From a virus: a stretch of DNA of 64,000 bases. Below, in pieces: positions 12,278-48,243 of the stretch. The notes beneath the pieces were generated by a model. It made no database searches. It was not told the origin of the DNA and worked only from the letters and a program-made list of their open reading frames with translations. Numbering within the stretch: the stretch's first letter is position 1; each line of letters begins with the position of its first letter. The DNA is taken from IMG/VR virus record IMGVR_UViG_3300031857_000091, positions 1 through 64,000 of that record; one strand, written 5' to 3'. The position numbers and the translations under genes are program-made.

Positions 12278-13000
12278 TTAAACAAATAATGCAATTACGT
12301 CTTCTGGATATGTGTTCACCAGCCCAAATCTTGGATCGGCTACCGGACTAACAGTGATACCATGATTCTTGCAATAAGCCGTGGCTTTTTTCCCAATAAC
12401 CGCAGCTTGTTGAACAGGAATCGCCCCAAGATTATGTTTTCTGTAGTAACCAACTACAGCTAAATAATGTCCGTTTGGATTAAATATGCGGTCAATTTCG
12501 GCATCATGTTGATGAGTTAATAATTCTAGTTCAGCTAACTTTTGTGATTGCAATTGCTGTTCAAGTTCTAACCGCTGCTGTCTTTGTTCGAGAGCGATAA
12601 TAGCTTCAGCCTGAATTTTTAGTAATTCGCCGGGAGTTAATGGCTTGGGTTCGTATTTACCTGTCTTACGAATTTGGGGAAGTACTTCACTTGTTACCCA
12701 TTTTTTAAAGGCTTTGGCTGATGGTTTTGTACTGCCAAAAATAACAGCGTATAATCCTGACTCGTTAATAATCGAAACTTTGAAAGTATTGCTACTAAAG
12801 GATTCGGCTATTTTCGCCGCTTCTATTTTTTGTGGGTTAATGACTTGCTTATCTTCTTCATCAACCAAGTCAAGCATTCGACGATTATCGACGTATTCCA
12901 GCACTTGTGCCACGTCTTTGGCAACAAACCATGGTTCATTGTCAAGAACTAAGATGCGGACTTGATTAGACTGAAAAGCAAACTGTGCTAAAATGCTCAT
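12278..13000 (-). CDS. BRO-family (Bro-N) antirepressor-like protein
   Basis: 240 residues. Residues 1-115 form a Bro-N domain (PWFVAKDVAQVLEY, then NESGLYAVIFGSTK and WVTSEVLPQIRKTGKY), followed by a Gln/Leu-rich coiled coil (about 125-165) and a C-terminal domain as found in phage antirepressors. BRO proteins bind DNA and usually act as regulators or antirepressors. A paralogue with a very similar N-terminus starts at 28069 and has been split by a mobile element. Both share the same hairpin leader directly upstream, so they are probably controlled together. Confidence 0.88.
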   Translation of the reverse strand: MSILAQFAFQSNQVRILVLDNEPWFVAKDVAQVLEYVDNRRMLDLVDEEDKQVINPQKIEAAKIAESFSSNTFKVSIINESGLYAVIFGSTKPSAKAFKKWVTSEVLPQIRKTGKYEPKPLTPGELLKIQAEAIIALEQRQQRLELEQQLQSQKLAELELLTHQHDAEIDRIFNPNGHYLAVVGYYRKHNLGAIPVQQAAVIGKKATAYCKNHGITVSPVADPRFGLVNTYPEDVIALFV

Positions 13001-13020
13001 TGTTGATCCTGTGCTATAGG

Positions 13021-13057
13021 GTTGACTGCCCCTGGGTGCTCCTACACCGCGAGGGGC
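13021..13057 (-). promoter_or_regulatory. Conserved 5' leader hairpin (copy 1)
   Basis: On the minus strand CCCCTCGCGGTG and CACCCAGGGG are separated by six bases and followed by CAGTCAAC. The two arms pair as CCCCT/AGGGG and GGTG/CACC with CGC opposite C. A candidate -10 box (GATAAT) lies about 11 bases before the hairpin, so the transcript probably begins with it. Copies lie upstream of 25279 and 28069. Confidence 0.7.
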
Positions 13058-13197
13058 TTTTTCTCATATTATCATATTTGTGATTTTACAAACTAAAAAA
13101 AGATAAAATAGAAATTAAATCCTAGTGTTGTGCCTTTTGTGCTTCCTTTCATCGATTGGGTACGAGCTCAAGGAATTTGACAACACAAGGTCAACAT

Positions 13198-13584
13198 CTA
13201 ATTTATTTTCACAATTCGGTCTGCAATAATTGATTTAACTCCTGGTAGATTCACGGCTTCTACAATTTGTGACTTTAGACCTTTGGCTACTAAAGCTCCA
13301 CTAGTTTCCCCTTGCCATTGAATATCTATCGACAAATTCTGCAAAGCTGTTACGGTTTGTTCTACCGTTATTGCCAATTGCTGTTTTGTATGTTCAATCA
13401 ATGCTTTACGATATTCAGTGCGAGAGGGAAACTCACTAGGTAAAATTTGATTAGTGGAAGATGCCTCTAGATTATCTTCTTGTAAGATAATAATTACTTG
13501 TAATTGTTCATCTTTCCCTGCATTAGTTAAGACTTCTCGCAATAAAGGATCGATTTTAGCTTGTTGAAAAGGAGTAAGATTCAT
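13198..13584 (-). CDS. Inhibitor I9-like (subtilisin prodomain-like) protein
   Basis: 128 residues. The order of likely elements is strand (LQVIIILQED), long helix (about residues 52-80), strands (IDIQWQGETSGALVAKG), helix, and a final strand ending in ADRIVKIN. This resembles the I9 fold, the prodomain and inhibitor of subtilases. There is no catalytic domain. A subtilase at 41266-42654 begins directly at its catalytic domain with no prodomain, so this could be an inhibitor or chaperone acting in trans. That link is inference; the genes are 28 kb apart. Confidence 0.5.
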   Translation of the reverse strand: MNLTPFQQAKIDPLLREVLTNAGKDEQLQVIIILQEDNLEASSTNQILPSEFPSRTEYRKALIEHTKQQLAITVEQTVTALQNLSIDIQWQGETSGALVAKGLKSQIVEAVNLPGVKSIIADRIVKIN

Positions 13585-13657
13585 GATTTAATTGGTTTTA
13601 ATTTATTTACAATTAATAATATTCTATTTTTGAATCTTTTAATAGTCGGGGAATTCG

Positions 13658-13876
13658 TCAAATAAGTATCAATTCTTGTTCATTATTTTGCTCATCTTTA
13701 ATCATTAGTTTTTTGCCTGTACCCTTTAATCCTGCGTATAGCTGCATTACTTGAACACCTCTGATTATAACTTCATCAGGTCTTATTCCAAGCTTCTTAG
13801 CTAAATCTTTAATTATGTCGTTGTCCGGTGCTGTGACTGTATAATTAATAATTTTGTTTTTGGTTTTAGTTGCCAT
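13658..13876 (-). CDS. Small basic protein, possibly DNA-binding
   Basis: 72 residues from the ATG at 13876, which opens with a Lys-rich tail (MATKTKNKI). The middle (DIIKDLAKKLGIRPDEVIIRGVQVM) has the helix-turn-helix spacing seen in small ribbon-helix-helix or CopG-like regulators, but the assignment is weak. A longer form starting at 13930 is possible. It lies between the pyrG gene and the I9-like gene on the same strand. Confidence 0.6.
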   Translation of the reverse strand: MATKTKNKIINYTVTAPDNDIIKDLAKKLGIRPDEVIIRGVQVMQLYAGLKGTGKKLMIKDEQNNEQELILI

Positions 13877-13945
13877 GAAATTTACTTTAACAGACTTTAA
13901 ATAAAAGCTAAAACTGCTTAAACCATGCAAAAAATAAATTTATTT

Positions 13946-15583
13946 TCAACTATTTAGTAAAATAAAATTTAAACAAGCTTGAATCAATCCAAGAAATAGA
14001 GGATGAGGTTTATTAGGGCGAGATAAAAACTCAGGATGAAACTGCGTGCCAATAAAAAAAGGATGAGCCGGATACTCTATAATCTCTACTAGATTTTCAG
14101 TAGGGGAAACTCCACTAACCTTGTATCCACTAGCGTTAAACAATCGCAAAAATTTATTATTAAATTCATACCTGTGACGATGACGCTCATAGATACTTTC
14201 ACATTGATAAAGCAATTGAGCTTGAGTATCGTCTCTCAGTAAACATTTATAAGCCCCTAGCCTCATTGTCCCACCTATAAAATTTTGTTTTTGTTGGTTG
14301 GGAGATAAAGTAATTACTTTATTTGGCGACATACTATCCCACTCTTCACTGGTGGCGTTAGTCATCCCCATTATGTTTCTAGCCCATTCTACAACTGCGC
14401 ACTGCATTCCCAAGCAAATTCCCAGAAAAGGGATTTTAGTCTCTCTAGCATATTGAATTGCCTTGATTTTGCCTTCTATTCCCCTAGTCCCAAACCCTCC
14501 TGGAACTATTACTCCATTAACTCCCTCTAGCAACATCTGAGCGCCTCGTTTCTCGATTTCCTCTGAATCTACCCAATCAATAGTCAAGTTAGTGTCAAGT
14601 TTGGCAGCAGCATGATTTAAAGCCTCGGAAATAGACAGATAGGCTGATGGGAGCTTTACATATTTTCCTACAATAGCTATATCTATACGATGTGTTGTAG
14701 TCTTTATCCTTTGAACATAGTCAGTCCATTGAGTTAAGTTTGTATCAAATTTTGCCAATCCCAACTGGGTTAATTTTTCCAATCCCATTAAGGTTATAGC
14801 TTGACGGGCTAAACCAGCTTTTTCTAGTAGCAATGGAACTTGATAAATACTGGTTGCGTCTAAAGCGTTAATAATAGAATCTATAGGAACATCACAGAAT
14901 CCTGATAGCTTTTCTTTAACATCATCCGATATTGGGCGATCGCTTCGACAAACCAAGATATCTGGTTGAATACCTAAAGACCTTAATTCTTTTACCGAGT
15001 GTTGCGTTGGCTTTGTTTTCGTTTCTCCAGCGGTACGAATCCATGGGATTAAAGTGACATGAAGATAAAGAACATTTTCTTTTCCCACTTCCTTTTTATA
15101 TTGCCGAATCGCTTCTAAGAAAGGGAAAGACTCAATATCCCCTACAGTCCCACCGACTTCTACCAAGATAATGTCTGCATTGCTTGACTCGGCTAAACAA
15201 GTAATTCTTCTTTTTATTTCGTCGGTAACGTGAGGAATTACTTGAACCGTAGCACCGTCATATTTTCCAGCTCTTTCATTTTCTATAACTTGCGAGTAGA
15301 CTTGTCCCGTGGTGACATTATTTAATTGACTCGTAGGAATATCCGTAAATCGCTCATAATGTCCTAGATCTAAATCTGTTTCCGCACCATCTTCTGTGAC
15401 AAAAACTTCGCCATGCTGTATGGGACTCATTATGCCGGGGTCAACGTTAATATAAGGGTCAAGCTTTAGGATTGAGATTGAATACCCTCTTGCCTTTAAT
15501 AAAGCCCCTAAACTTGCAGTAACTATCCCCTTTCCTATGCTAGAGACAACGCCCCCTGTCACAAAAATAAATTTAGTAATCAT
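13946..15583 (-). CDS. pyrG: CTP synthase
   Basis: 545 residues, full length for the family. The N-terminal amidoligase domain begins [17 protein letters not shown] with the P-loop and has GGTVGDIES and HVTLIPW motifs. The C-terminal class I glutamine amidotransferase domain has the nucleophile Cys390 in GICLGMQ and His516/Glu518 in QFHPEF. It converts UTP to CTP with glutamine as nitrogen donor. All key residues look intact, so it should be active. Phage-encoded CTP synthase is uncommon; here it fits with the NrdB, Dcd, ThyX and Tmk genes elsewhere in the window. Its start overlaps the upstream gene in an ATGA, which implies translational coupling. Confidence 0.97.
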
Positions 15584-16023
15584 CTTAAAACCTCAAATAC
15601 TCTATTAGTCTGTATTGGACTATCATCCGAGATGATTTTTTCTATTTGGAAGGGAAGCACTTTTAACCCATGGTAGTCTTTAAAGCATTTATTTGGTCTG
15701 GGTTTAGCCGTGAAAGAGATACAGCATTCTTTTCTTTTTGCCTTGTAAATTTCGGCAATATATTCTTGTCTGGTTTCTTCTCCAGTTAATAAGCCCATAG
15801 CCGGGACAATAAAAGAAAAAGTTAACAAGCCACAGTTTCTCTCCTGCATTACTTGTATTAAGCTAGAATCAACCTTGAAAAAACAAGGGGAAGCATCTTT
15901 AAATTTTGTCACATATACATACCCAAAGCATGGTATAAACCCTTCATACTTTAGATAATCCGTCGGAACTTCTCTAGGCAATCCCTTATCTTTTATGTCT
16001 TTCCAGCTTTTGCTTTTTCCCAT
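15580..16023 (-). CDS. Hypothetical protein upstream of pyrG
   Basis: 147 residues, basic, with six cysteines scattered through the chain (including KECC). It begins [20 protein letters not shown]. No family recognised. It overlaps the pyrG start by four bases (ATGA), so the two are co-transcribed and translationally coupled, and it may act in the same pathway or simply be the first gene of the operon. Confidence 0.75.
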
Positions 16024-16096
16024 TGATTTGTTTTATTAAGCTTGTTTTTAATAGTTTACCTTTATATTTTGTAGTGAAAGCCTTTAAATATAAACT

Positions 16097-16130
16097 CTCC
16101 AAACAAGATTAAAACTTTTCTTGTTTGGAG
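16097..16130. repeat. Perfect inverted repeat (hairpin)
   Basis: CTCCAAACAAGA and TCTTGTTTGGAG form a perfect 12-bp inverted repeat with a ten-base loop. Its right half, plus about 25 bases beyond, recurs at about 16820-16855 beside the parA fragment, so it has taken part in a local rearrangement. Confidence 0.8.
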
Positions 16131-16179
16131 ATAGATTAAATTATATGTGTGGAGATTAAAAATTTTTTATATTTATTTA

Positions 16180-16197
16180 GCCCTATTTGCATAGGGC
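16180..16197. terminator. Hairpin at the 3' end of the 16207-16596 gene
   Basis: GCCCTAT-ttgc-ATAGGGC lies ten bases past the stop codon. The minus strand then runs into A/T-rich sequence with a T run further on; the plus strand has TTTT directly after. It probably terminates transcription of the minus gene. Confidence 0.6.
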
Positions 16198-16206
16198 TTT
16201 TCAGCC

Positions 16207-16596
16207 TTATTTACCGAATTTCTCGGTAAAATAAACGTCTCGCATCCAATCCCAAGCGTCTCCACTTGTAAAGCTTTTGTCCACTTTTTTAAGTGCTTTG
16301 GCGCACGGTAAGATTATTTCCTTAAAGACTTGCTTGTTAGTCATGGTTTTGACGTGGTTATAAGCCGTCCCAGAAATGCGACCAGTAGCTATGCCGTGGT
16401 ATAAGCCATATAGCAACTCGCTATAACCATACTCATAACCGTTATCGGGTAATCGTTTTAAAGCTCTGTATAATGGAGCATAGTCAAAATCAACTCGGAT
16501 AACTTCATTTAGCGTTTTTTCGCTAATGTAGCAAAGCTCTTTGAGAGCTTTGAGCGTAGGAACAGAGGTAATGGAAGCGGTAAAAAAAGTAGCCAT
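16207..16596 (-). CDS. Hypothetical protein
   Basis: 129 residues. The central part is rich in Tyr and Gly (LPDNGYEYGYSELLYGLYHG) and the C-terminus has a GDAWDWMRDVYF segment. No family recognised. It has its own promoter of the TTGACA/TTTTAAAA family about 55 bases upstream and a hairpin directly downstream, so it is an independent unit. Confidence 0.7.
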   Translation of the reverse strand: MATFFTASITSVPTLKALKELCYISEKTLNEVIRVDFDYAPLYRALKRLPDNGYEYGYSELLYGLYHGIATGRISGTAYNHVKTMTNKQVFKEIILPCAKALKKVDKSFTSGDAWDWMRDVYFTEKFGK

Positions 16597-16649
16597 GAGA
16601 GAAACTCCTAAAAGAAAGGTTTAAGTATTGGCTCTCAACCAACTCTTTT

Positions 16650-16678
16650 ACTATAGTTGATACTTTTAAAAATGTCAA
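16650..16678 (-). promoter_or_regulatory. Promoter of the TTGACA/TTTTAAAA family
   Basis: Minus strand: TTGACA, 17-base spacer containing TTTTTAAAAGTATC, then TATAGT. AGTAC precedes the -35 box. It faces the gene starting at 16596 and is the copy identical in -35 box and spacer to the promoter at 17365-17393. Confidence 0.8.
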
Positions 16679-16817
16679 GTACTTTTAAGGAAAAGTTTGT
16701 GAATAAACTTTTGAGCCTAATAAGATAGATATTAATCTTAAAAATCACTAAAGAACAATAGGGACAGTTATAACAATCGCTTCACTTTCGTGTTAGCAAG
16801 GGAAAACTACTATAAGC
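16653..16817 (+). repeat. Duplicated parA promoter/5' region (decayed copy)
   Basis: This block is nearly identical to 17368-17533, which spans the parA upstream region and its first twenty codons. It includes the minus-strand promoter, the AAGTTT...AAACTT palindrome and the start of the coding region. Differences are a few substitutions and one small indel. Confidence 0.9.
16758..16817 (+). pseudogene. parA 5' fragment (pseudogene)
   Basis: Twenty codons homologous to the start of parA at 17474. The start codon has become ATA, the two Gly codons of the P-loop have become TGT and TAG, and homology stops after the codon matching residue 20, where an unrelated repeat joins. It cannot encode ParA. 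Confidence 0.9.
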
Positions 16818-16877
16818 CTTTTCTTGTTTGGAGGTTAAATTATGTGTGTGGAGATTAGCGATCGCTTTTTATTTTAA

Positions 16878-16949
16878 TGGCAAAGACTGGAATCGAACCA
16901 GCTACCTGCGGGGTATGAACCCGCCGAGCTACCATTGCTCCACTTTGCT
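16878..16949 (-). tRNA. tRNA-Met (CAU), initiator-like
   Basis: 72 nt folding as a complete cloverleaf: acceptor AGCAAAG/CTTTGCC, D stem GAGC/GCTC, anticodon stem GCGGG/CCCGC with loop TTCATAC (anticodon CAT), five-base variable loop, T stem GCTGG/CCAGT with loop TTCGATT, discriminator A. CCA is not encoded. Several traits match initiator tRNA: an unpaired first position (A1 with C72), three consecutive G:C pairs (GGG/CCC) at the base of the anticodon stem, and the A11:U24 pair in the D stem. A tRNA-Ile with modified C34 or an elongator Met tRNA is the alternative. Confidence 0.9.
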
Positions 16950-16990
16950 ATTTCTAGTATACCGTAACTTATTTCACGAAATATAAAAAT

Positions 16991-17011
16991 AAAAAAAGCC
17001 CCTTTCGGGGC
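16991..17011 (-). terminator. Intrinsic terminator
   Basis: Minus strand GCCCCGAAAGGGGC followed by TTTTTTT, just past the stop of the gene ending at 17018. Confidence 0.93.
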
Positions 17012-17017
17012 GGTTGA

Positions 17018-17332
17018 TTATTTTGTTAAAAACTTGAGGTTAAACTTTTTCCAGATATCTTGAGGATTATACTGTTTGCTTTTTATAGCATTGATTACGT
17101 TTTCCGCGTCATAATCTGTTAGTTTCCACTTAACTTCAGTAATGGTGTAGGTCTCGGTTTCGAGGTCAAACTCAACCTCACCTTGTTTCCAGATAACGAG
17201 ATTGCCTTTTGTATCTCTTTCTGCTTTGATTTGAGCAAACTTATAGTGAGACTCAATAAATTCTAATAAAACTTTTATTTCAGACTCGGTGCTGTAGTAG
17301 TTGTTTAGGTAGCTGGTAGGTTGTGCAATCAT
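17018..17332 (-). CDS. Hypothetical protein divergent from parA
   Basis: 104 residues, with a strongly beta-type middle section (GNLVIWKQGEVEFDLETETY) and a basic C-terminus. No family recognised. It is transcribed divergently from parA from a promoter of the shared family and ends at a strong terminator, so it is monocistronic. Confidence 0.72.
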   Translation of the reverse strand: MIAQPTSYLNNYYSTESEIKVLLEFIESHYKFAQIKAERDTKGNLVIWKQGEVEFDLETETYTITEVKWKLTDYDAENVINAIKSKQYNPQDIWKKFNLKFLTK

Positions 17333-17364
17333 GTCAGTTATTCCTGTTTTGTCTTTACTCTTCT

Positions 17365-17393
17365 ATCATAGTTGATACTTTTAAAAATGTCAA
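17365..17393 (-). promoter_or_regulatory. Promoter of the TTGACA/TTTTAAAA family
   Basis: Minus strand: TTGACA, 17-base spacer with TTTTTAAAAGTATC, TATGAT. AGTAC precedes the -35 box. It drives the gene starting at 17332 and lies back to back with the parA upstream region. Confidence 0.85.
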
Positions 17394-17410
17394 GTACTTT
17401 TAGAAAAAAA

Positions 17411-17457
17411 GTTTGTGAATAAACTTTTGAGCCTAATAAGATAGATATTAATCTTAA
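17411..17457. promoter_or_regulatory. parA upstream palindromes (candidate operator)
   Basis: Two short palindromes, AAGTTT-gtgaat-AAACTT and AAGAT-agatatta-ATCTT, sit between the divergent promoter and the parA start. Both are conserved in the decayed copy at 16.7 kb. They are candidates for autoregulation by the partition proteins. Confidence 0.5.
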
Positions 17458-17473
17458 AAATCACTAAAGAACA

Positions 17474-18253
17474 ATGGGGACAGTTATAACAATCGCCTCA
17501 CTTTCGGGCGGGCAAGGGAAAACTACTATAAGCTTCTTCCTGAGTAAATATCTGGCAACTAGAGGAAAAGTATTAGCCTGTGATATTGACCCCCAAGCTA
17601 ATCTAACTTTCTTTTTGGGCTACGACCTTGGCAGTACTGAAGCAAGTGCCTACGAGTTAATCACAGGAGAGGTAGAGCCTCACCACTGTATCTACTGGTC
17701 TCACAATAATGCGCAGCTGCATATTATTCCCACTGATGATGGCTTAGCAAAAGCCCAAGAATTCTTATCATCTAGTGGGATGGGCGCACTAGTCCTTAAA
17801 TCTCGCATTGCCCAGATAAAAGAGCAATTTGATTTCATTATTATTGACTCGCCACCATCTCGGACTCAACTAGCATTAACTACCCTAGGTGCGGCAGACG
17901 TGGTCATTATCCCCGTCGAAACCCACGTTAAAGGAATTAACTCATTACTTAGGACATTAGAGCTATTAGACGGCTTAAACACGTTAGGGCAGGTGACTCC
18001 AAAAATACTAGGGGTGATTCCTTTTAGAGATAGATGGATAGGGCGTACTCAACAAAGACAGTCAAGAGAGGCGATCGCCATCATGAGGGAAATTGCCTTA
18101 GAACGTGGTTTTACTGTTTTTAATTCCCTGATAGAGTCTGAGCGCTACAAGCAAGCAATAGACAAAGGGATACTGTTAGACGCTCTTGGATATCCTGAGT
18201 TAATGATTCCGTTCCAACAAATAGAGGTAGCCTTATGTCAGATTCAGCATTAA
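17474..18253 (+). CDS. parA: ParA-family partition ATPase
   Basis: 259 residues. Walker A is SGGQGKTT (residues 11-18), with Ser where most ParA proteins have the signature Lys. ACDIDPQANLTFFLG and the DFIIIDSPPS Walker B follow, as does the GVIPFRDR region typical of ParA/Soj. ParA ATPases position plasmids and phage-plasmids by pattern formation on the nucleoid. The gene overlaps the next small gene by 19 bases and is followed by an array of repeats, the classic parA-parB-parS order. The 5' region is duplicated and decayed just upstream. Confidence 0.9.
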   Translation: MGTVITIASLSGGQGKTTISFFLSKYLATRGKVLACDIDPQANLTFFLGYDLGSTEASAYELITGEVEPHHCIYWSHNNAQLHIIPTDDGLAKAQEFLSSSGMGALVLKSRIAQIKEQFDFIIIDSPPSRTQLALTTLGAADVVIIPVETHVKGINSLLRTLELLDGLNTLGQVTPKILGVIPFRDRWIGRTQQRQSREAIAIMREIALERGFTVFNSLIESERYKQAIDKGILLDALGYPELMIPFQQIEVALCQIQH

Positions 18254-18579
18254 ACCGCTTAAACGAGAAACGCAAAATGGTTAACGAAAGAAAAGATAGC
18301 TTGTTTGATAATGCGATCGCTGACAAGCAAGAAGAATACCCAGAATACTCTAGAGTCACTATCAAAATGGAAGTAGGGATAGATTCTCGGGTACGAACTA
18401 TTTGTTCAAATGAAAAGCTAAGTAAAGAAGCTTTTATCGAGGCTACCTGTGATTGGCTCTTGGATAAGCCGGAAATTATAGAAGAAATTTTATTACTGGC
18501 AAGAAAAAAGGCTTTTTACAGGAAGCAAGTAGGAACTAAGCGCAGGGCTAAAACAATGGTGCAAAAATTCTGCGAGTAA
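18235..18579 (+). CDS. ParB-like small partition partner
   Basis: 114 residues, highly charged. The N-terminal 30 residues are a basic arm and the middle (RVTIKMEVGIDSRVRTICSN) has a strand-helix pattern compatible with a ribbon-helix-helix centromere-binding protein, ending in a basic tail. The role rests on position: directly downstream of and overlapping parA, and upstream of the repeat array. In type Ib systems the small partner binds direct repeats and stimulates ParA. Sequence similarity alone would not settle it. Confidence 0.6.
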   Translation: MSDSALNRLNEKRKMVNERKDSLFDNAIADKQEEYPEYSRVTIKMEVGIDSRVRTICSNEKLSKEAFIEATCDWLLDKPEIIEEILLLARKKAFYRKQVGTKRRAKTMVQKFCE

Positions 18580-18600
18580 CAAACCAAGTCCAAAACTCTT

Positions 18601-18627
18601 CGCTCTTTAATTAGAGCGATTTTTTAT
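18601..18627 (+). terminator. Intrinsic terminator of the parAB operon
   Basis: CGCTCT-ttaatt-AGAGCG followed by ATTTTTTATT about 20 bases after the stop codon. Confidence 0.88.
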
Positions 18628-18665
18628 TAATAAATATATATGTAATTATACCCTAAAATCTTTGA

Positions 18666-19159
18666 CGCATCCGTCAACCACGCAGGTTCTAGCTTGCTAC
18701 AAGTCTTGTTTTATTTTTAAACGCATTCTAATAGAAACTCTCAAACCCTTATAAAATAACAATTTTTAAAATTAGTAGTATAATAATTTTAAGCTTTTTA
18801 AACTTAAACGCATCCGTCAACCATGCAAATTTCAGCCTATTTTAACGTTATAATACAGCAGAACCTATCAAATTTAATAAAAAGCCGTTTCATCCCTTAA
18901 CCGTGCGGGTTTAAAGACTTTTTTACTAACCAATCACTAACATTAGCTGTCGGAAAAAGGTTAGGCAAAAATCGCTATCATCCCTTAACCATAATAGTTT
19001 TAACCTCTTTTCTACCCTTATCAAAAAACCGACACCCTCGCGCATCCGTCAACCATGCGGGTTTTAGGGGTTTAAAACTTTAGGTTACTTTAGCTTAATA
19101 GCTATCTTACTTTTGATATGCAAAAATTGCTATCATCCGTTAACCACAATACTTTTGGC
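18666..19159 (+). repeat. Six iteron-like direct repeats
   Basis: Copies begin near 18666, 18809, 18889, 18979, 19041 and 19134. The core is CATCCGTCAACCATGCGGG with a TTTTAG-type tail. Copies 1, 2 and 5 share CGCATCCGTCAACCA. Copies 3, 4 and 6 have CATCCSTTAACC-type cores, and copies 4 and 6 also share a CTAT prefix. Spacing varies from about 60 to 145 bp. All face the same way. They are candidates for binding sites of the ParB-like protein or a replication initiator. Confidence 0.85.
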
Positions 19160-19370
19160 AATTAGTAATATATTTGTGAGTGCTGTTTAAAAAACAAGAG
19201 GTAGGTAAAATTTTTACCCCCCCATCTATATATAAGAAGATATTTTTTTTAAACAAATAACTGGTTTATTTATTTCTAACTATCTGGTTTGGATGTTTAA
19301 AAAAAATTAATAAATTCCGGAGTGCGCGCAAATGCGCGAGAGCGTGTTTATTTTTTTTTCGGATTGGAAA

Positions 19371-19445
19371 CCTAACAGCCAGGCGACCGCAAGTCTCAGG
19401 ATGAGGGAAACTACCGATAGCAGTTGGATTTGAGTAATTTTCTCT
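19371..19445 (+). ncRNA. Candidate structured RNA (unassigned)
   Basis: A GC-richer block in AT-rich DNA, rich in GAAA/GGAAA and short complementary segments (CCT...AGG, CTC-aggat-GAG, CTACCGATAG). It does not encode a plausible peptide. One segment (CAGCCAGGCGACCGC) faintly recalls a cobalamin-riboswitch B12 box, but the remaining conserved parts are missing, so no family is assigned. Confidence 0.25.
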
Positions 19446-19729
19446 TTAGCCGGAAATAGTTTGTTTTTTTATTTAGCCTAAAAGTTTTGCTCCAGAGGGC
19501 GCGTGAGGCTCGAAAAAATGGATAAATGAATAATCCTATTAACTGGGTAGTAAAGTGTCTAGAATTTGACGCTAGAGGTCTCTGAGAGAATATTTGCTAT
19601 TGAGTAGGGGTGTACCCAAACAGAAAAATATCAAGCCTAACTTGCTGTAGCAAAAATATGTTTAATTAATAAAACATTTAAAAAATTAGCAAAAAGCTTA
19701 TCAGTTATGGATTGCAGTCATGTTAACAA

Positions 19730-19794
19730 TTGTCCCTCGCACCGTATTACTTTAAAGTATACTTGTCCCTCGCGTCGTATTGCGTTAAATGTAT
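19730..19794 (+). repeat. Two direct repeats upstream of the exonuclease gene
   Basis: TTGTCCCTCGCACCGTATTA and TTGTCCCTCGCGTCGTATTG, each followed by a TTTAAAGTAT-like tail, start at 19730 and 19763 (33-bp period). Tandem sites at this distance upstream of a gene suggest an operator. Confidence 0.75.
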
Positions 19795-19812
19795 AGATAG
19801 TTGTAATAAAAT

Positions 19813-19862
19813 TTGTCTGGTAAAAATTGATTAAATTAATAAATTGCCAGACAATTTTTTTA
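19813..19862 (+). terminator. Terminator-like hairpin before the exonuclease gene
   Basis: TTGTCTGG and CCAGACAA pair across a 26-base AT-rich loop and are followed by seven T residues. It lies between the tandem repeats and the start codon at 19905, so it could be an attenuator for the downstream gene or the terminator of a short upstream RNA. Confidence 0.55.
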
Positions 19863-19904
19863 AAAATTACTGTTAAGCTAAGAGACAAAATCAACATAAT
19901 TTTA

Positions 19905-22975: not shown

Positions 22976-23365
22976 CTACAGATTATATCTCCGAGTAACT
23001 TCAATTAGTTTAACTGTTGTCCCTTTGCTCAATGATTGATTTCCAATTCTTGCGCTACTACCTACTTGCTTAAGGTCAGCAATATACATTTGCCTAATAG
23101 TCATATCGCCATCATCTGGATTAATATAATCTTCTACGGTTAATCCAAGAGGAAATTGGTTTTCACTCATAGCCAGTAATCGAGTATAGATTGTCCTGCG
23201 ACCATCATTAACGGTTATCTCGCAACCAAATCTTTTTGGAAGTTTTAAGACTTGTACACTGCTACTCCCTGTAAATTGAATTTCTTCCCCTTCCCATATC
23301 TGGTTATAACCTCCTAACCATGGGATTAATTCTACATCTTCAACGACTATTTTATTAAAACTCAT
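22976..23365 (-). CDS. Hypothetical tail-associated protein
   Basis: 129 residues, beta-rich (GCEITVNDGRRTIYTRLLA). It abuts the hub-like gene with no gap, so the two are co-translated, and a role in the tail tip or as a hub partner is likely from context only. No family recognised. Confidence 0.7.
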   Translation of the reverse strand: MSFNKIVVEDVELIPWLGGYNQIWEGEEIQFTGSSSVQVLKLPKRFGCEITVNDGRRTIYTRLLAMSENQFPLGLTVEDYINPDDGDMTIRQMYIADLKQVGSSARIGNQSLSKGTTVKLIEVTRRYNL

Positions 23366-23446
23366 TTTAGTTAATTTTTAAGATTAGAAAATTAAAGTAT
23401 TATTTATCATGTTGACTTATTTAAACACAAACAATAAACAAAAAAT

Positions 23447-24634
23447 ATGGAAAACGCTTTTTTATTTGCAATACAGTGCGAGAAAAATGTTTTAATGGAC
23501 GCGGTTAAATTTGCTAGTGGGTTTATTGCTGCTAGACCTAGTCATCCTATCTTAGGGGGAATGCTATTTAAGGCTCAAGATGAATTCTTAGAAATAGAAT
23601 CAACGAATTTAGACCAGGGTTGCAAAATTAAAATACCTTGCACCACTACAATCAAGGGGGGAGTCGTTTTACCAGGAAAACAGTTAAACTCTCTACTTAA
23701 TAATCTAGTGGGAGATACTATTAGTATCTATTTAACTGAAGTAAATACTAAACAAGGCATAGTATCTAATAATGATTATATAGCAGTTATCCGTTGTGGT
23801 CAGCAAGAAGCAGCATTAGTAACTAGTTCTATCAATGAATATCCTGAGATTAACTATAGTGGAGAATCAAAATTAGAGATAGATGCCCAGTTATTTAGCT
23901 CTTCTATCCTAAAAACAATTCACTGTACTTCGTCAGATTCATCCAAGATGGTGCTATGTGGAATCAACATAGCATCTTCTCCACGCGGGTTAACTTTTTC
24001 TGCAACCAATGGACATTATCTGGCTACAGCAACTATCCCCGGTCATTACGAGCAGGGTATTAGCTTAACTGTTCCAGGTGTGTTTTTGTCTAGGGTGCAA
24101 AAATTGTTGAAAACTGCTGAAACATTGACTTTTGCTATTAAGGAGAATGATTTAATTGCTGAGTTAACTACTAATCTAGGTAAAGGAGGTATTGTCGATA
24201 TTGCATTATACTCTAGACTGCTGAATGGGAATTTCCCACAATGTGAGAAGCTAGTTCCAGCTACTTTTAAAAGAGAAGTTTTATTCTCTAAAGAACAGTT
24301 AGCCCAAGCTCTAAATTTAATTGGCTGTTGCGATAGCGATGATTCACGCACAGAATATACTTGCTCGTTTGAGATACAGGATGAACAGACAAAAATCACT
24401 AAGTCTGGCTCTTCGGTTTTAAATGTTTGTCAATTAACAAGCTCAACACTGTTAGTGGGAAATGGTTTAACTATTGGGTTCAATTACCTTTATTTTAAGA
24501 ATCATCTATCGGCTTTATCTAGCGATGACGTGGTACTGAAGTTTAACAATGAGCGTAGCCCTGTGATTATGCAAGGGCAAGATGAAGCTCTAGATTCCAC
24601 TCTTTTAATTATGCCAGTGCAGTTAAAATCATGA
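23447..24634 (+). CDS. dnaN: DNA polymerase III beta sliding clamp
   Basis: 395 residues, close to the bacterial clamp length (about 370). Features include SHPILGGMLF near residue 32, PGKQLNSLLNNL, the internal ATNGHYLATATIPG segment and a C-terminal LLIMPVQL that matches the conserved clamp end. It should form the ring that tethers the replicative polymerase to DNA. A phage-encoded clamp suggests that the phage redirects the host replisome or uses its own polymerase. It overlaps the next gene by an ATGA. Confidence 0.88.
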   Translation: MENAFLFAIQCEKNVLMDAVKFASGFIAARPSHPILGGMLFKAQDEFLEIESTNLDQGCKIKIPCTTTIKGGVVLPGKQLNSLLNNLVGDTISIYLTEVNTKQGIVSNNDYIAVIRCGQQEAALVTSSINEYPEINYSGESKLEIDAQLFSSSILKTIHCTSSDSSKMVLCGINIASSPRGLTFSATNGHYLATATIPGHYEQGISLTVPGVFLSRVQKLLKTAETLTFAIKENDLIAELTTNLGKGGIVDIALYSRLLNGNFPQCEKLVPATFKREVLFSKEQLAQALNLIGCCDSDDSRTEYTCSFEIQDEQTKITKSGSSVLNVCQLTSSTLLVGNGLTIGFNYLYFKNHLSALSSDDVVLKFNNERSPVIMQGQDEALDSTLLIMPVQLKS

Positions 24635-24924
24635 ACACTAGTGACTTACTTAATTGCAATTTAGCGATCGCTGTTCCATTGGCAACAAAGGAATACAAGC
24701 AATTCCCGGAAAAATGGGAGGCTGATAGGGAATTAATTGTTAGTTATGCTGATGTTTTTGCACATCAAGGTGATGAGTTGTTATTTTACCAAAAAGGGGT
24801 AAGCGGTCAACTATTTGTAAAATTAGCCAGAGCCTTGGCATGGGCATCTTTTTTGCCTGGTGGAGTTAGATTTAATGGTGTGCTATACGAGGCTAATTTA
24901 ACTAACATGAACAAATCTCTGTAA
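24631..24924 (+). CDS. Hypothetical protein downstream of dnaN
   Basis: 97 residues. It starts inside the dnaN stop (ATGA overlap), so it is translationally coupled to the clamp. The sequence has a GELLFYQKG-like middle and ends in a helix (KLARALAWASFLPGGV). No family recognised. Its 3' end overlaps the convergent nuclease gene by 23 bases. Confidence 0.65.
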   Translation: MNTSDLLNCNLAIAVPLATKEYKQFPEKWEADRELIVSYADVFAHQGDELLFYQKGVSGQLFVKLARALAWASFLPGGVRFNGVLYEANLTNMNKSL

Positions 24925-25192
24925 TCAATTCCACGTGCTCTGGTGTCAATTTAAACCATTCCCCACTAGGGCTGCACCGATGAAACATTAATAATCGATG
25001 CAGTCTTTTTTCTATGGCATGGGCATTAGCTACAGGAAAAACTTTAATTAGATGTAGCCTAGCATTATTCCCTGTTTGTAGTTGCTTTACTCTCTTCAAT
25101 GGGTTGTCAGAGATACCAATTTTGTAGATAGCTTCTGTGTTTTTCTGGATTAAATAAATATATTGAGGTTTAATCTCTGTTTGTTTTTTCAT
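24902..25192 (-). CDS. GIY-YIG-like (T5orf172/MUG113-type) nuclease domain protein
   Basis: 96 residues. The GIY-YIG-like core reads YIYLIQ...YKIGISDNPLKRVKQLQTGN, followed by ...AIEKRLHRLL...GEWFKL, the pattern of the short T5orf172-type domains. GIY-YIG proteins cut DNA with Tyr, Arg and Glu residues. The gene is small and encodes only that domain, so it may be a nicking or homing-type nuclease. It is transcribed on the opposite strand to its neighbours. Confidence 0.8.
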   Translation of the reverse strand: MKKQTEIKPQYIYLIQKNTEAIYKIGISDNPLKRVKQLQTGNNARLHLIKVFPVANAHAIEKRLHRLLMFHRCSPSGEWFKLTPEHVELITEICSC

Positions 25193-25220
25193 AAAATTGA
25201 CATGGTATTATAAGTAAATA

Positions 25221-25248
25221 CCCCTCGCGGTGAGCAAACACCCAGGGG
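25221..25248 (+). promoter_or_regulatory. Conserved 5' leader hairpin (copy 2)
   Basis: CCCCTCGCGGTG-agcaaa-CACCCAGGGG, the same hairpin as at 13021-13057 and 28008-28035. A candidate -10 (TATTAT) lies about nine bases before it. It precedes the 25279 gene. Confidence 0.75.
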
Positions 25249-25278
25249 TCATACATACTCATTAGCAAGTAATGCACT

Positions 25279-25587
25279 ATGACAAATTTAGCACAGAATA
25301 CCCAGGAGATTTGGCGCAAGATTATCGATCATTTAGAGCCACTTACAACTAGAGAGTTGTTAAAATATCAATGCACATTAATTGAGTTTGACGGTGAAAG
25401 CGCTCGTATTGGGATTAGTTCTGAAAACCTATTGAAACTAGTTCAAGGGAAACTGACTAATTTACAAGCAGCTTTTACCACTACTTTTCAACGTCAAATC
25501 AAAGTAACTCTAGAAGTAGCACCCATTGGGTTTGAAAAGAAAAATAACCTTCCTCCCCCCTTACCTTCTTCTGTAGCAACTGATTAA
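25279..25587 (+). CDS. DNA polymerase III tau C-terminal domain-like protein
   Basis: 102 residues. After the short MTNLAQ start the protein reads like the C-terminal region of cyanobacterial DnaX (tau): ...TRELLKYQCTLIEFDGE, then ARIGISSENLLKLVQGK and NLQAAFTTTFQRQIKVTLEV. The ATPase part is absent. It might bind polymerase or DnaB in place of host tau, which would fit a nearby phage clamp and a phage DnaB. The similarity is recalled by pattern, not searched. It shares its leader and first codons with two BRO genes. Confidence 0.55.
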   Translation: MTNLAQNTQEIWRKIIDHLEPLTTRELLKYQCTLIEFDGESARIGISSENLLKLVQGKLTNLQAAFTTTFQRQIKVTLEVAPIGFEKKNNLPPPLPSSVATD

Positions 25588-25591
25588 AGTA

Positions 25592-25657
25592 TTGAAACAC
25601 CTAGACTTATTCTCGGGAATCGGTGGCTTTAGTCGAGCTGCTGATTTTCTTGATTAG
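25592..25657 (+). pseudogene. C5-cytosine methyltransferase N-terminal remnant
   Basis: Twenty-one codons (plus a TAG stop) starting at a TTG match the start of C5-cytosine DNA methyltransferases (KHLDLFSGIGGFSRAA, motif I). The frame then meets TAG and the sequence beyond, although open for some 40 codons, has no methyltransferase motif. It follows the tau-like gene by four bases. This is the relic of a lost dcm-type gene. Confidence 0.75.
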
Positions 25658-25753
25658 AAACCCCAGGATGTAAATACTCCACAACAAGCTTATGTGGCGC
25701 TAAAAGTTTTAGACTTTTGGTTAAAGTGTGTTTTAAAAAATCTCAAAAAGTAC

Positions 25754-25782
25754 TTGACATTTTTAAAAGTGTCTGTTAACTT
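25754..25782 (+). promoter_or_regulatory. Promoter of the TTGACA/TTTTAAAA family
   Basis: TTGACA with a TTTTTAAAAGTGTC spacer of 17 bases and a weak -10 (TAACTT), preceded by AAGTAC. It faces the gene starting at 25815. Confidence 0.75.
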
Positions 25783-25814
25783 AGAGAAGTAAGCAAAACA
25801 AAGGAAAATAAGCC

Positions 25815-26534
25815 ATGGAATGTATTCAAATTATTGTCAAAATCGAGTCACAAGAAATCGTAAAACTTTTAAAAGAGAAAGGAAATGAGCTTGACAATCT
25901 TATTTCTTTGCATGGGCAGTACGCAACTTTCGCGGGAGATTCCACTTTTTCTTGGAAATGGTTAGCTGATAACCTTCTCTTCATGAACGATTGGTATGAT
26001 GCTGATTGCATCGAATTTCGTGAAGATAATGCTCTTATTGTAGCTGCTTTATGGCAGCATGATGGCGAAGAAGGTATTACCAAGTGGTATGCCTGCAATG
26101 GATGTAGCGACGATTTTATCGTTGACAACGAGTTTATTAGTAAAGTCATTGCAAAGATTTGGATTGAAGAAACGGATATAACTTATTTTAACTTTGACAG
26201 AACAAAATGGCTTAACGCGCGTGCTCAAAAAGCTAAGCCAGTTTCTAATAAAATTGATGTCCCTTCACGGGAACAAATTACAAGAGATTGGCTGGTGTCA
26301 TTGACTATTGCTGACTGGCAAGATTTGCTAAAGCAGCAAGTTGTCAAAACTAAGATACTAGATGACTGGGAAAATCCTATATTTAAAAAACTCCAGCTTG
26401 AGTATAAAGGATTATCTTATGAGTTTCCTAAATTGGCTTTACAAGCCATTGAAGAAGGTAAAGGATGGATTGGAGTTGAAGCTATCAAAGCCAAGCCCGT
26501 TCTCAGAGCAAAACCAGTATTAAATAAAAAATAG
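25815..26534 (+). CDS. Hypothetical protein
   Basis: 239 residues. The first 130 residues are acidic, with Trp-rich segments (FSWKWLADNLLFMNDWYDADC and CNGCSDDFIVDN), followed by a basic-acidic helical region and a C-terminal repeat of KAKPVLRAKPVLNKK. No family recognised. AAGGA precedes the ATG. It is the first gene of a two-gene unit with its own family promoter and a terminator after the second gene. Confidence 0.75.
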   Translation: MECIQIIVKIESQEIVKLLKEKGNELDNLISLHGQYATFAGDSTFSWKWLADNLLFMNDWYDADCIEFREDNALIVAALWQHDGEEGITKWYACNGCSDDFIVDNEFISKVIAKIWIEETDITYFNFDRTKWLNARAQKAKPVSNKIDVPSREQITRDWLVSLTIADWQDLLKQQVVKTKILDDWENPIFKKLQLEYKGLSYEFPKLALQAIEEGKGWIGVEAIKAKPVLRAKPVLNKK

Positions 26535-26544
26535 GAGAATAGAT

Positions 26545-26784
26545 ATGTTTGAGAATTTGTTGATTTGGTTTGACGTCATTAGAGGGGCACGTCCCCGCCG
26601 TCATTTATGGCAGGCTCTTAGTAATTTCACCGAGAACAATGTTAGCTCACCATGGGCAAAAACTTTTAAAAGATATATCGATGATACCTATGTTTATTAC
26701 GGGGAAAGCGATATTTCTTATCGAGAATGGTTAGGGAGACATTTTTGGGCAGAATTAAATCTTGATGATTTTGAAGAGATTTAA
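26545..26784 (+). CDS. Hypothetical protein
   Basis: 79 residues, Trp- and Tyr-rich and acidic at the C-terminus (FWAELNLDDFEEI). It follows the 25815 gene by ten bases with an AGGAGA Shine-Dalgarno, so the two are one operon. No family recognised. A strong hairpin terminator lies 18 bases beyond. Confidence 0.72.
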   Translation: MFENLLIWFDVIRGARPRRHLWQALSNFTENNVSSPWAKTFKRYIDDTYVYYGESDISYREWLGRHFWAELNLDDFEEI

Positions 26785-26801
26785 TTTACTGCTTCAAGAA
26801 T

Positions 26802-26839
26802 AAAAAGCACTTAAGTTTGTTACAGCTTAAGTGCTTTTT
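26802..26839. terminator. Bidirectional terminator hairpin
   Basis: AAAAAGCACTTAAG and CTTAAGTGCTTTTT pair over a ten-base loop, giving A and T runs on both sides. It can end the two-gene unit on the plus strand. Confidence 0.92.
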
Positions 26840-26881
26840 ATATTGGATAAAATAAATAATAGTTACTAATATAGGTTAAAC

Positions 26882-27007
26882 ATGATTATTTTATACTGCT
26901 TAAGTTTTTTGGGGATATTCTTTTTATTACTATTGTGGCGGACTGGATTATTGAATATTTTTTTTATTGCCTTTATCTGCCAATTTGAAAACCTATTGAC
27001 AAAATAA
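26882..27007 (+). CDS. Small membrane protein (candidate)
   Basis: 41 codons, almost all hydrophobic (LSFLGIFFLLLLWRTGLL then IFFIAFI), as expected for one or two membrane spans. There is an AGG a few bases before the ATG. It may be a tiny membrane protein such as a holin-like factor, but composition is the only evidence. Confidence 0.35.
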   Translation: MIILYCLSFLGIFFLLLLWRTGLLNIFFIAFICQFENLLTK

Positions 27008-27017
27008 GTAAGATTAA

Positions 27018-27260
27018 TTATTCTCCTAAAGAAAAATTGTTAATTAAAAAAGCGGTAGAAATGCGATAAAGTTGATTATTTAACCGTCTGAGATAAGAAT
27101 AATCACCGTCACATTCAGTCAAGAAAAAAGTTTCGTAAACAGAAGAATCAAAATAATCAGGATAATTGCTGTAGTAAGAAAAAATATTACAGTCAGATAA
27201 TACTAATGCTCCTTGACATTTGACCTTTTGCCCTATCAACATTTCGACGTTGTACAACAT
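27018..27260 (-). CDS. Hypothetical protein coupled to the PEP-CTERM gene
   Basis: 80 residues, Tyr-, Ser- and Asp-rich, starting inside the stop of the upstream PEP-CTERM gene (TAATG overlap), so its translation is coupled. No family recognised. A function related to the secreted protein is possible from context only. Confidence 0.6.
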   Translation of the reverse strand: MLYNVEMLIGQKVKCQGALVLSDCNIFSYYSNYPDYFDSSVYETFFLTECDGDYSYLRRLNNQLYRISTAFLINNFSLGE

Positions 27261-27895
27261 TATTTAGTTTTGAGGGATTTGTTGATTGACTTTGATAAAA
27301 ATAAGCCAGTGATTCCTAAAATAGATGAGATAACAGTGGTAGGCTCTGGAACAGTTGTAGGCTCAAATTCTACAGGAGAGCTTGCTATCCCACTTAGAGA
27401 AAAGCTTTGATTATTTGGTATCCCTTGAGCAGAGATACTGACTTGCCCAGGTAATATATAAGTGCCGTTAGAAACAGGAACGCGCCACTGTCCATTAAAT
27501 GTTGCCCCAGTAAACCGCTGAGCACCGGACCTAAAGTTACTGCCATCTTCGCCAGGATTGTTTGGATAAAAAATAATTTTATTTGTAATTAAAGGGCTAG
27601 GAGCAGTAGGTTGCCCATTTCCAATAGTTCCTAGTGGAGAAAGATTAATAGGTTGAATATCAACAGGTCCATTAAGCCCTAAATTTGGTAACGGATTCCC
27701 ATCAGTATCTATTCCCCCAGAGAAAAAGGTAGATGTTAGGATTGCTGAATTGTTGGCAAATTTTAATTGTGTATTGCTTAAGCTTGCATCTCCGGCAATA
27801 GTAATGCGACCAACCGTGGCAGCAGATGCCATAGCAAAACTAAGATTAGCAACAGCCCCAGTCAGTAACGCAGTTAATTTAAGAATATTTTTCAT
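27260..27895 (-). CDS. PEP-CTERM sorted exported protein
   Basis: 211 residues. It has an N-terminal signal peptide (lysine then a long hydrophobic run ending in SAA) and a C-terminal PEP-CTERM sorting tail: VPEPTTV followed by a hydrophobic span and a basic end. In bacteria the signal is handled by an exosortase, which anchors or secretes the protein. The central part (residues 25-180) is Gly/Asn-rich beta sequence. Cyanobacteria carry many such proteins, so the gene was probably acquired from a host. It is transcribed as a pair with the 80-residue gene. Confidence 0.85.
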   Translation of the reverse strand: MKNILKLTALLTGAVANLSFAMASAATVGRITIAGDASLSNTQLKFANNSAILTSTFFSGGIDTDGNPLPNLGLNGPVDIQPINLSPLGTIGNGQPTAPSPLITNKIIFYPNNPGEDGSNFRSGAQRFTGATFNGQWRVPVSNGTYILPGQVSISAQGIPNNQSFSLSGIASSPVEFEPTTVPEPTTVISSILGITGLFLSKSINKSLKTK

Positions 27896-28007
27896 TAGCT
27901 TTAATTTTAAAAATATATCTCATTTAAAATTTAACATATTTTTTAATACGCTACCTTGATTAACTCTTTTTTTGTTTACAGAATAACGTACAATGGCAAT
28001 AGAAACA

Positions 28008-28042
28008 CCCCTCGCGGTGCGCAAACACCCAGGGGCAGTCAA
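28008..28042 (+). promoter_or_regulatory. Conserved 5' leader hairpin (copy 3)
   Basis: CCCCTCGCGGTG-cgcaaa-CACCCAGGGG followed by CAGTCAACC. A -10-like TACAAT lies about a dozen bases upstream, so the hairpin would be at the 5' end of the transcript of the split BRO gene. An AGAGG Shine-Dalgarno follows before the start codon. Confidence 0.75.
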
Positions 28043-28068
28043 CCTACTTCACAGACAAGAGGTTAACA

Positions 28069-29202
28069 ATGAGTAATTTAGCACAATTTGCCTTTGGAAA
28101 CAATCAAGTTCGAGTTGTTTTGATTGATGGTCAACCATGGTTTGTGGCAGCTGATTTGGCAAAAATTCTAGAATATGCCAACACAGGGAAAATGCTTCAA
28201 ATTGTGGACAAAGAAGATTCCGTAGAAATTAACCCGCAAAAGTTGGATAATGCCAAAATGGTACTATCCTTTAATAGCAATACTTTCAGGGTTTCATTGA
28301 TTAACGAATCTGGGTTATATTCCGTGATTTTTAATAGTACTAAGTCGGAAGCCAAAACTTTTAAACGGTGGGTAACTAGTGATGTCCTTCCCCAAATTAG
28401 AAAAACGGGAAAATATGAACCCCAGTCAAAACTAAATATCTACGCCCGTCGAGTACAGATAGCTTCTAAATGGGAAATACCTAAAGGTTATTGGTGCGTT
28501 TTTCATGAAATATCCTTACTAGCCAATAAAGTAGGGGAGACCTATCAAGTCGGCGAGTTTGACACTCCACTACCTAAAGGTGAGTGGATTCTTTAGAGGA
28601 GATAACTAACAAATGCTAGTCATTGCTCGAAGCAACCACATTGTCATATCGTGCCTTAGCACTAATACAACAGCAGTTCACAAGGCGGTGTCAATTGCCT
28701 TTATCCTGTCAGCTATTGCTTTCAGGTTACTTTTTGCTTACGTTTTTTCACTCGCTTACAGTCTTTCTTTATGGGGGCTGAGGCTGTAGTGCATAGCACC
28801 GAGTACCATTTCGGTTACTCATTTTTTCAACAGGTGTCCCGCCACAGGGTGTTTCACCCTACCAGTAAGGTCTTAGTTGCGTACTTTTATTTTACACTAA
28901 TTTCGACAAAATATAAAGCCGTCCTCAAGGACGGGGTTTCTACCCATTTTTCTGATGACTTGATCGACGGCAGTGTAGGTCAATGTTGGAGCAAGTATCG
29001 TAAGGCTTTTGATTGGATTCAGCCCACTATATTGTTTCCCATCTTTTTTGGTGATTCTCGAGACGCTGCTCATGTGCAGGTTCATGGGTACAAGAATAGC
29101 GAGTTACCCCACTTCCGTGATTGGCTAGAAAATATCTACACACTAGAGCGATTGCCAAAATATCTAACTGGCAAATATGGGCAATTGATGAAGCGAGATT
29201 GA
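28069..29202 (+). pseudogene. BRO-family gene split by a MITE
   Basis: The first 165 codons encode a Bro-N domain close to the 12278-13000 protein (PWFVAADLAKILEY; INESGLYSVIFNSTK; WVTSDVLPQIRKTGKY), then a stretch leading to GEFD. Then the mobile element sits in the coding region. Downstream of it the same frame resumes at SDDLIDGSVGQCWSK and runs to a stop at 29202. Deleting 28564-28950 (387 bases) would restore a single 248-codon gene, similar in length to the intact paralogue (240). As it stands it gives a truncated protein ending in element-derived residues. Confidence 0.9.
28564..28952 (+). mobile_element. IS200/IS605-type MITE, copy 1
   Basis: A 389-base element inserted 3' of TTGAC. 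It has no transposase gene. The left end carries an imperfect hairpin (CCACTACC/GGTGAGTGG) and the right end a hairpin CCGTCC-tcaa-GGACGG followed by GGGTTTCTACCC, the subterminal structures of IS200/IS605 elements, and there is no target duplication. About eight mismatches separate it from the inverted copy at 47829-48217. The right boundary is uncertain by a few bases (28950-28953). Confidence 0.88.
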
Positions 29203-47712: not shown

Positions 47713-47826
47713 TTAATGCGACAAACCGAAAATCAAATACAAAATTAGGAAAAGCAAGATAACGAGAGGGGCGAGAACAATTGCGGCAATTACTCCAGCG
47801 ATAAATCGAGCAAAAAAGGTAATCAT
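47713..47826 (-). CDS. Tiny membrane protein next to the MITE
   Basis: 37 codons, almost wholly hydrophobic (ITFFARFIAGVIAAIVLAP then LVILLFLILYLIFGL), consistent with one or two membrane spans. Its start codon is only two bases from the MITE, with no ribosome-binding site visible, so the element may have removed the original upstream part or control region. It may be a relic. Confidence 0.4.
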   Translation of the reverse strand: MITFFARFIAGVIAAIVLAPLVILLFLILYLIFGLSH

Positions 47827-47828
47827 TG

Positions 47829-48217: not shown

Positions 48218-48243
48218 GTCAATTGTTGTCTCTAAATTGAAAA

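Follow-up and report, generated by a model that had tools for sequence, protein, structure and literature searches.

The sar RNA of phage P22 has long been regarded as a curiosity of Salmonella phages. In the P22 annotation it occupies positions 15021–15090 and lies opposite to the start of ant (15091); the promoter (15097–15125) is inside ant and the terminator spans 15021–15058. The c4 RNA, by comparison, is located upstream of ant within the same transcript. Sar pairs with the ant mRNA and halts translation of the antirepressor (PMC12197685, PMC13397905), and in a mycobacterial study an Rfam-predicted Sar RNA with low homology was reported to be expressed from a prophage region (PMC6582537). 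In phages P1 and P7 the c4 antisense RNA, likewise small and structured, acts at the ribosome-binding site to prevent translation of the antirepressor, and in cyanophage S-PM2 an antisense RNA, CfrI, was described beside a homing endonuclease gene (PMC12197685 for both). We analyzed 64,000 nucleotides (nt) of viral DNA, positions 1–64,000 of the IMG/VR record IMGVR_UViG_3300031857_000091 (referred to as the window), in which three genes are preceded by the same hairpin. Judged from sequence and comparative analysis, each of these three loci is very probably a sar-type antisense switch.

The window contains exactly three copies of the hairpin CCCCTCGCGGTG-N6-CACCCAGGGG, at positions 13029–13056 (minus strand), 25221–25248 (plus strand) and 28008–28035 (plus strand). 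No copy arose by chance in 100 dinucleotide shuffles of the window with three mismatches permitted, and no fourth copy was found in the whole virus record of 83,430 bases. The genes behind the hairpins encode a Bro-N protein (start at 13000, minus strand), a protein of 102 amino acids related to DnaX/tau (PF23007, start at 25279) and a second Bro-N protein (start at 28069). Their coding starts resemble each other (ATGAGCATTTTAGCACA, ATGACAAATTTAGCACA and ATGAGTAATTTAGCACA). Sense -10-like boxes precede the CCCC of the hairpin by 9, 9 and 13 nt and are the predicted promoters of the respective mRNAs: TAATAT with a TGA extension at 13066–13071 (minus strand), TATTAT with a TGG extension at 25206–25211 (plus strand) and TACAAT at 27989–27994 (plus strand). 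Across the leaders, too, sense -10 boxes are more frequent ahead of the hairpin than in shuffled sequence. The first-pass annotation of this DNA had described the hairpin, the similar coding starts and the upstream boxes (at 9 to 12 nt), and these observations held, the hairpins lying at the positions it had given. What it had overlooked are the signals on the opposite strand and another covarying hairpin, P2, located between the hairpin described above (P1) and the AUG. P1 is identical in the three window copies except for its loop; P2 differs among them.

A search with the exact hairpin pattern, leaving the downstream sequence unconstrained, returned ten further viral loci. All of these except L006 and L007 carry a start codon at a fixed distance behind the hairpin, and the encoded proteins differ. 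An alignment of 21 leaders comprises two hairpins: P1, in which an invariant CGC/C internal loop separates an outer and an inner stem, both of them variable, and P2, which ends at the start codon. Paired cells amount to 92.8% in this alignment, and double changes are present in 12 out of 16 pairs. Since 53 double-change cells were observed compared with 14.5 in shuffles, none of 500 shuffles reaching 53, the two-hairpin structure is under selection. Sliding the pairing partners abolishes the signal.

A covariance model (R1) was built from the leaders and trained without the tau-like window copy and without P22; E-values of the covariance models used here are rough. R1 recovers all three window copies, with 58 bits for the locus at 13000, 53.3 bits (E 1.2e-13) for the untrained tau-like copy and 65.4 bits for the locus at 28069. 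It matches approximately 45 distinct loci among the sequences searched and 6 of 386 cyanobacterial genomes, and several phages hold three copies of the element, like the window. From a scan of genome contigs, with a pattern too loose for GC-rich genomes, only the Crocosphaera locus L233 was used among the hits listed. In alignment A2, 0 to 2 nt were trimmed between CAC and ATG, one spacer nucleotide was edited in one row and the TTG start of L171 was written as ATG; these edits served to anchor columns, and the strand and -10 tests described below were run on unedited sequence. A related phage was found neither by megablast with 20–32 kb of the window nor by blastn with a single leader.

Three elements have no intact gene behind them, because of a missing start codon or a stop after seven codons (L006:10957–11024, minus strand; L007:4781–4848, minus strand; L028:3250–3320, plus strand). 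They are possibly remnants or chimeric joins. Seven matches on actinobacterial chromosomes were not counted; their internal loop is different and most of them lack a convincing antisense -10 box. Leaders on actinobacterial chromosomes with a similar stem, a single bulged C and no convincing antisense -10 box (L357, L358, L360, L361 and L362) precede genes of helix-turn-helix type and others, and possibly constitute a separate leader family.

Which strand carries the structured RNA can be read from the base changes. Across 42 leaders with less than 90% identity, read along the gene, the paired columns contain 622 Watson-Crick pairs, 63 A·C, 3 G·U and 11 other combinations; on the opposite strand, these mismatches turn into 63 G·U and 3 A·C. 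Without one column that is nearly always A·C, the ratio is 26 to 3. G·U pairs are tolerated in RNA, A·C pairs are not. Because the A·C cells become wobble pairs on the opposite strand, the structured RNA is, by this sequence criterion, the transcript running against the gene. Its fold is also the more stable one in 39 of 41 leaders, with a mean gain of 5.9 kcal/mol compared to 2.8 kcal/mol for shuffled sequence, which exceeds the effect of composition. The view of the first-pass annotation that the hairpin forms the 5' end of the mRNA was not upheld: the structure is that of the opposite strand, where the hairpin represents the terminator at the end of the predicted antisense RNA. A sense leader with the A·C mismatch of P2 as a ligand or protein site had been considered, and so had a riboswitch, a ribozyme and an operator for a ribosomal protein; in view of the G·U/A·C asymmetry there was no longer a reason for any of them.

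The start of such a transcript would be provided by the first codons of the target gene. The shared codons ATGA..AATTTAGCA read as an extended -10 box on the opposite strand (TGCTAAATT); for instance, ATGAGTAATTTAGCACA becomes TGTGC-TAAATT-ACTCAT. All three window copies contain TGCTAAA(A/T)T in the antisense direction. A good antisense -10 box lies within sense positions 4–14 in 34 of 41 leaders with a start codon, compared to 15 of 150 other starts of open reading frames (ORFs) on the same contigs; for AT-matched control ORF starts the number is 10 of 79. The position of the best box is 7, 8 or 10 in 34 of the 41 leaders and scattered in the controls. The hexamer itself varies (TAAATT, TAATAT, TAAACT, TATAGT, TATAAT, TACAAT), and the codons and proteins vary alongside. 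Since hexamer, codons and proteins vary together, the conserved entity is the promoter and not the peptide. The first-pass annotation had taken the conserved codons for a translation-initiation region, an assignment we do not retain, as the antisense -10 box explains their conservation. Transcription starting about 7 nt downstream of the box would set in at the start codon, the very place from which P2 extends. At the other end, P1 is followed on the opposite strand by a T-rich tract with 5.7 T in 9 nt, compared to 2.4 in a control stretch.

The same leader could instead act in the sense strand, with P1 and P2 stabilizing the 5' end of the mRNA or controlling translation, perhaps bound by a protein or ligand, and with the first codons extending the structure or aiding initiation. 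The sense -10 box upstream of P1 and the Shine-Dalgarno region within P2 fit such a role, and both hairpins also fold in the sense strand, although more weakly. Against it stand the A·C cells that replace G·U in the sense strand, the position-specific antisense -10 box in the first codons and the T-tract, which would be on the wrong side, and we consider it improbable as the explanation of the element. Sense and antisense readings can both be partly true, because the mRNA leader necessarily adopts the mirror-image fold and contacts between loops require both RNAs.

At the first locus, the predicted antisense promoter has the -10 box TAAAAT at 12989–12994 (plus strand) with the TGC extension at 12986–12988, inside codons 3–4 of the Bro-N gene and at the position of TGCTATACT in P22 ant. 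The predicted antisense RNA of about 63 nt (13001–13063, plus strand) comprises P2 (13002–13026), P1 (13029–13056) as the terminator hairpin with the conserved, asymmetric G/GCG internal loop, and a U-run at 13058–13062, where the DNA reads TTTTT immediately behind GAGGGGC. Its calculated folding energy is -28.2 kcal/mol compared to -20.9 kcal/mol for the sense strand. The target gene (12278–13000, minus strand) encodes an antirepressor-like Bro-N protein of 240 residues (PF02498, E 2.7e-24; PHROG annotation anti-repressor Ant). An Rfam match to the DUF3800-V RNA at 13104–13205 (plus strand) sits just past the mRNA promoter of this gene; with 29.7 bits (E 2.2e-4 in 301 nt) it is below the gathering threshold of 37.4.

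The second and third loci are organized in the same way on the other strand. For the tau-like gene (25279–25587, plus strand, 102 residues, PF23007 with E 4.3e-11), the predicted antisense -10 box TAAATT is located at 25285–25290 (minus strand; TGC extension at 25291–25293) in codons 3–4. The predicted RNA of about 66 nt (25213–25278, minus strand) contains P2 at approximately 25252–25276 and the terminator hairpin P1 at 25221–25248 and folds with -22.5 kcal/mol, the sense strand with -17.9 kcal/mol. For the second Bro-N gene (28069–28596, plus strand, 175 residues, antirepressor-like, PF02498 with E 1.4e-23), the corresponding box TAAATT at 28075–28080 (minus strand; TGC extension at 28081–28083) again falls into codons 3–4. 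Here the predicted RNA of about 69 nt (28000–28068, minus strand) is composed of P2 (28038–28067) and the terminator hairpin P1 (28008–28035), with folding energies of -28.5 kcal/mol and, for the sense strand, -20.2 kcal/mol. A 400-nt inverted repeat with 98% complementarity connects window positions 28559–28958 and 47823–48222. One arm of the repeat starts within the final 38 nt of this Bro-N gene, so that a mobile or duplicated segment may have taken the place of the gene's end.

Based on these features we propose the following mode of action. The mRNA promoter upstream of P1 would drive the target gene, while a second promoter, with its extended -10 box in target codons 3–5, would fire in the opposite direction and start beside the start codon. 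Antisense transcription would pass P2 and then P1, which together with the T-rich tract behind it would act as an intrinsic terminator. The product would be a two-hairpin RNA of 60–70 nt, fully complementary to the mRNA leader; the predicted RNA overlaps the ribosome-binding site of the target and is thus complementary to it. Its pairing with the mRNA would most likely prevent ribosomes from initiating on the antirepressor gene or another mobile gene until the mRNA outpaces it, as P22 sar does on ant. By analogy, the antisense RNA probably blocks translation of the gene it overlaps. We infer its transcription, its exact ends, translational repression and timing, as well as any role of the conserved internal loop and wobble pair. 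A contact of a protein or chaperone with the G/GCG internal loop or the conserved wobble pair is a guess. In the window, predicted duplexes between matching P2 halves have energies of -55 to -65 kcal/mol, those between non-matching halves -10 to -31 kcal/mol; on account of this difference the three switches may work independently of one another, although cross-pairing through their shared P1 could still occur. In G003 the P2 stems resemble one another, and independent action therefore does not hold in general.

The comparison with P22 sar (RF00262) reveals the same architecture. The P22 ant start ATGAATAGTATAGCA bears TGC-TATACT at the codon positions used in the window genes, so that both systems have an antisense promoter with an extended -10 box (TGCTATACT in P22) in the first codons of the target. 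Sar likewise starts at the base before the AUG, has a length of 68–70 nt, forms two hairpins of which the distal one is the terminator, covers the ribosome-binding site and has an antirepressor target; among the targets here, Bro-N, AntA, Rha and Ant-like genes are of this kind. In an 8-kb region of P22, the sar locus is the top match of both R1 (17.6 bits, E 5.5e-4) and R2 (21.8 bits, E 2.7e-4). R2 had no match in the phyla of Pseudomonas and Alicyclobacillus (349 genomes each), but the strict filters used for large sets would miss P22 sar too, so that an absence of sar-type RNAs is not implied. Unlike P22 sar, which has tandem wobbles at this place, the leaders here contain the asymmetric G/GCG internal loop in P1. 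Their sequence similarity to sar is low, their targets also include nucleases, KilA-N, Rha and tau-like genes, and there are several copies per phage. With c4 they share the small structured RNA over the ribosome-binding site of an antirepressor gene; in contrast to c4 they oppose the start codon. CfrI differs in its length of approximately 225 nt and its connection to psbA and F-CphI, and is not a two-hairpin counter-transcript over a start codon. Like DUF3800 and other Rfam leaders of mobile genes, the leaders are structured RNAs on genes associated with mobile DNA, and no Rfam family matched them at gathering or permissive thresholds.

Several points weigh against an assignment as sar-type switches. 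RF00262 does not match the window leaders up to E 5 or the twelve relatives up to E 10, and the same library entry finds P22 sar at 97.8 bits. P22 sar itself is devoid of the G/GCG internal loop and reaches just 17.6–21.8 bits with our models. About half of the antisense promoters have no TG extension, and a -35 element was not established. Scoring of -10 boxes relied on a hand-made matrix with E. coli-like frequencies; the best antisense score is below 2.5 in 3 of 41 leaders and negative in L064. The leaders share ancestry and are not independent lineages, so p-values such as that for the antisense -10 box (Fisher p 3e-19) are too optimistic and should be taken as indicative. Finally, a Bro-N homologue of phage CL131 has no detectable element, yet carries a TGATATATT-like antisense box.

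Proteins of at least eight families are encoded behind the element, namely Bro-N, KilA-N (combined with T5orf172/MUG113 or with ParB_N), Rha, AntA/AntB, Ant (phrog_63), GIY-YIG with NUMOD3, HNH of several families, DnaX/tau-like (PF23007), phrog_32599 and other unknowns. Bro-N, AntA, Rha and Ant-like proteins are antirepressor targets, GIY-YIG, HNH and tau-like proteins are not. Phrog_32599 recurs (L003, L086, L137, L181, L233, L022 and ORF068R and ORF028L of the cyanophage PaV-LD); this family of unknown function has a DGYxLPxGEFRVG pattern near the N-terminus and looks like a regulator of the antirepressor kind. This diversity largely refutes the idea that the genes inherited an old N-terminus and upstream region by duplication, with the hairpin as a passive intergenic terminator. 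Two of the three window genes are indeed Bro-N genes and P1 reads as a terminator on one strand, but the unit also precedes KilA-N, Rha, AntA, GIY-YIG, HNH and unrelated unknown genes, in every case the start codon marks the end of two covarying hairpins, and sense -10 boxes lie between any upstream gene and the hairpin. Such an ancestry is scarcely credible.

Promoter and P1 are identical over 55 nt between the KilA-N gene of L101 and a phrog_32599 gene of PaV-LD, and over 57 nt between the Ant-like gene of L342 and the phrog_32599 gene of L045; both blocks end in P2. These blocks before unrelated genes agree with the proposal of the first-pass annotation that expression signals are shared here and not a gene family. 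Its description as a movable cassette is supported for the promoter and P1, and P2 changes with the target. The cassette is present in relatives with independent neighbours, a comparison which the first-pass annotation had itself suggested as a test and which its claim survived. The blocks common to unrelated genes, together with the occurrence on genes of mobile type (GIY-YIG, HNH, KilA-N, Bro-N), would also suit a recombination or homing site for the insertion of mobile genes, with the RNA being incidental. A recombinase site, however, has no need for compensatory changes, the G·U/A·C asymmetry selects one strand and the promoters are placed for transcription, which makes a pure DNA element very unlikely.

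The element is also found in PaV-LD (L366/L367), a cultured cyanophage of Planktothrix that served as a held-out test. A model without PaV-LD detected five elements, four of them at annotated start codons, and their antisense -10 boxes include TGCTAAAAT and TGTTAAAAT. The annotated start of ORF105L (KilA-N) is probably 17 codons too early, because the fifth element places it within the P1 hairpin. In the mycobacteriophages Abrogate, DreamCatcher, JC27 and Peterson the same two-hairpin RNA is present in sense direction ahead of an HNH gene, and Abrogate and JC27 resemble the c4 layout. Relatives of this mycobacteriophage type are at L176:604–668 (minus strand), L148:1042–1105 (minus strand) and L139:1138–1205 (plus strand). 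The P2 loop TCTGTGG complements CCACAGA, the loop of a hairpin beside the HNH ribosome-binding site. Both loops have changed in concert in the related contig L139 (CTGTGAA with TTCACAG), this being a comparison of two sequence types only.

Elsewhere in the window, two adjacent direct repeats (16642–16826 and 17357–17542; 53 and 136 nt with 89–93% identity) flank an ORF of 104 amino acids at 17018–17332.

We regard the element as a new, widespread variant of sar-type control; the literature searched was open access, so a published description could have been missed. There is about an even chance that it is a portable antisense off-switch, one conserved two-hairpin module that phages of distant hosts have placed on genes that are selfish or risky, irrespective of family, be they homing nucleases, antirepressors or replication factors. 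The target codons would in this view be bent to the antisense promoter, and in a mycobacteriophage form the same fold, located in the HNH mRNA leader, would pair with the hairpin beside the ribosome-binding site. PaV-LD, which can be cultured and has five copies, allows a direct and cheap test. If the antisense interpretation is correct, the M-S/T-N-L-A start common to unrelated proteins would be explained by the constraint of a promoter on the opposite strand, and conservation at a start codon can therefore mislead annotation. Sar-type antisense control would then be a recurring means by which phages keep mobile and regulatory genes quiet.

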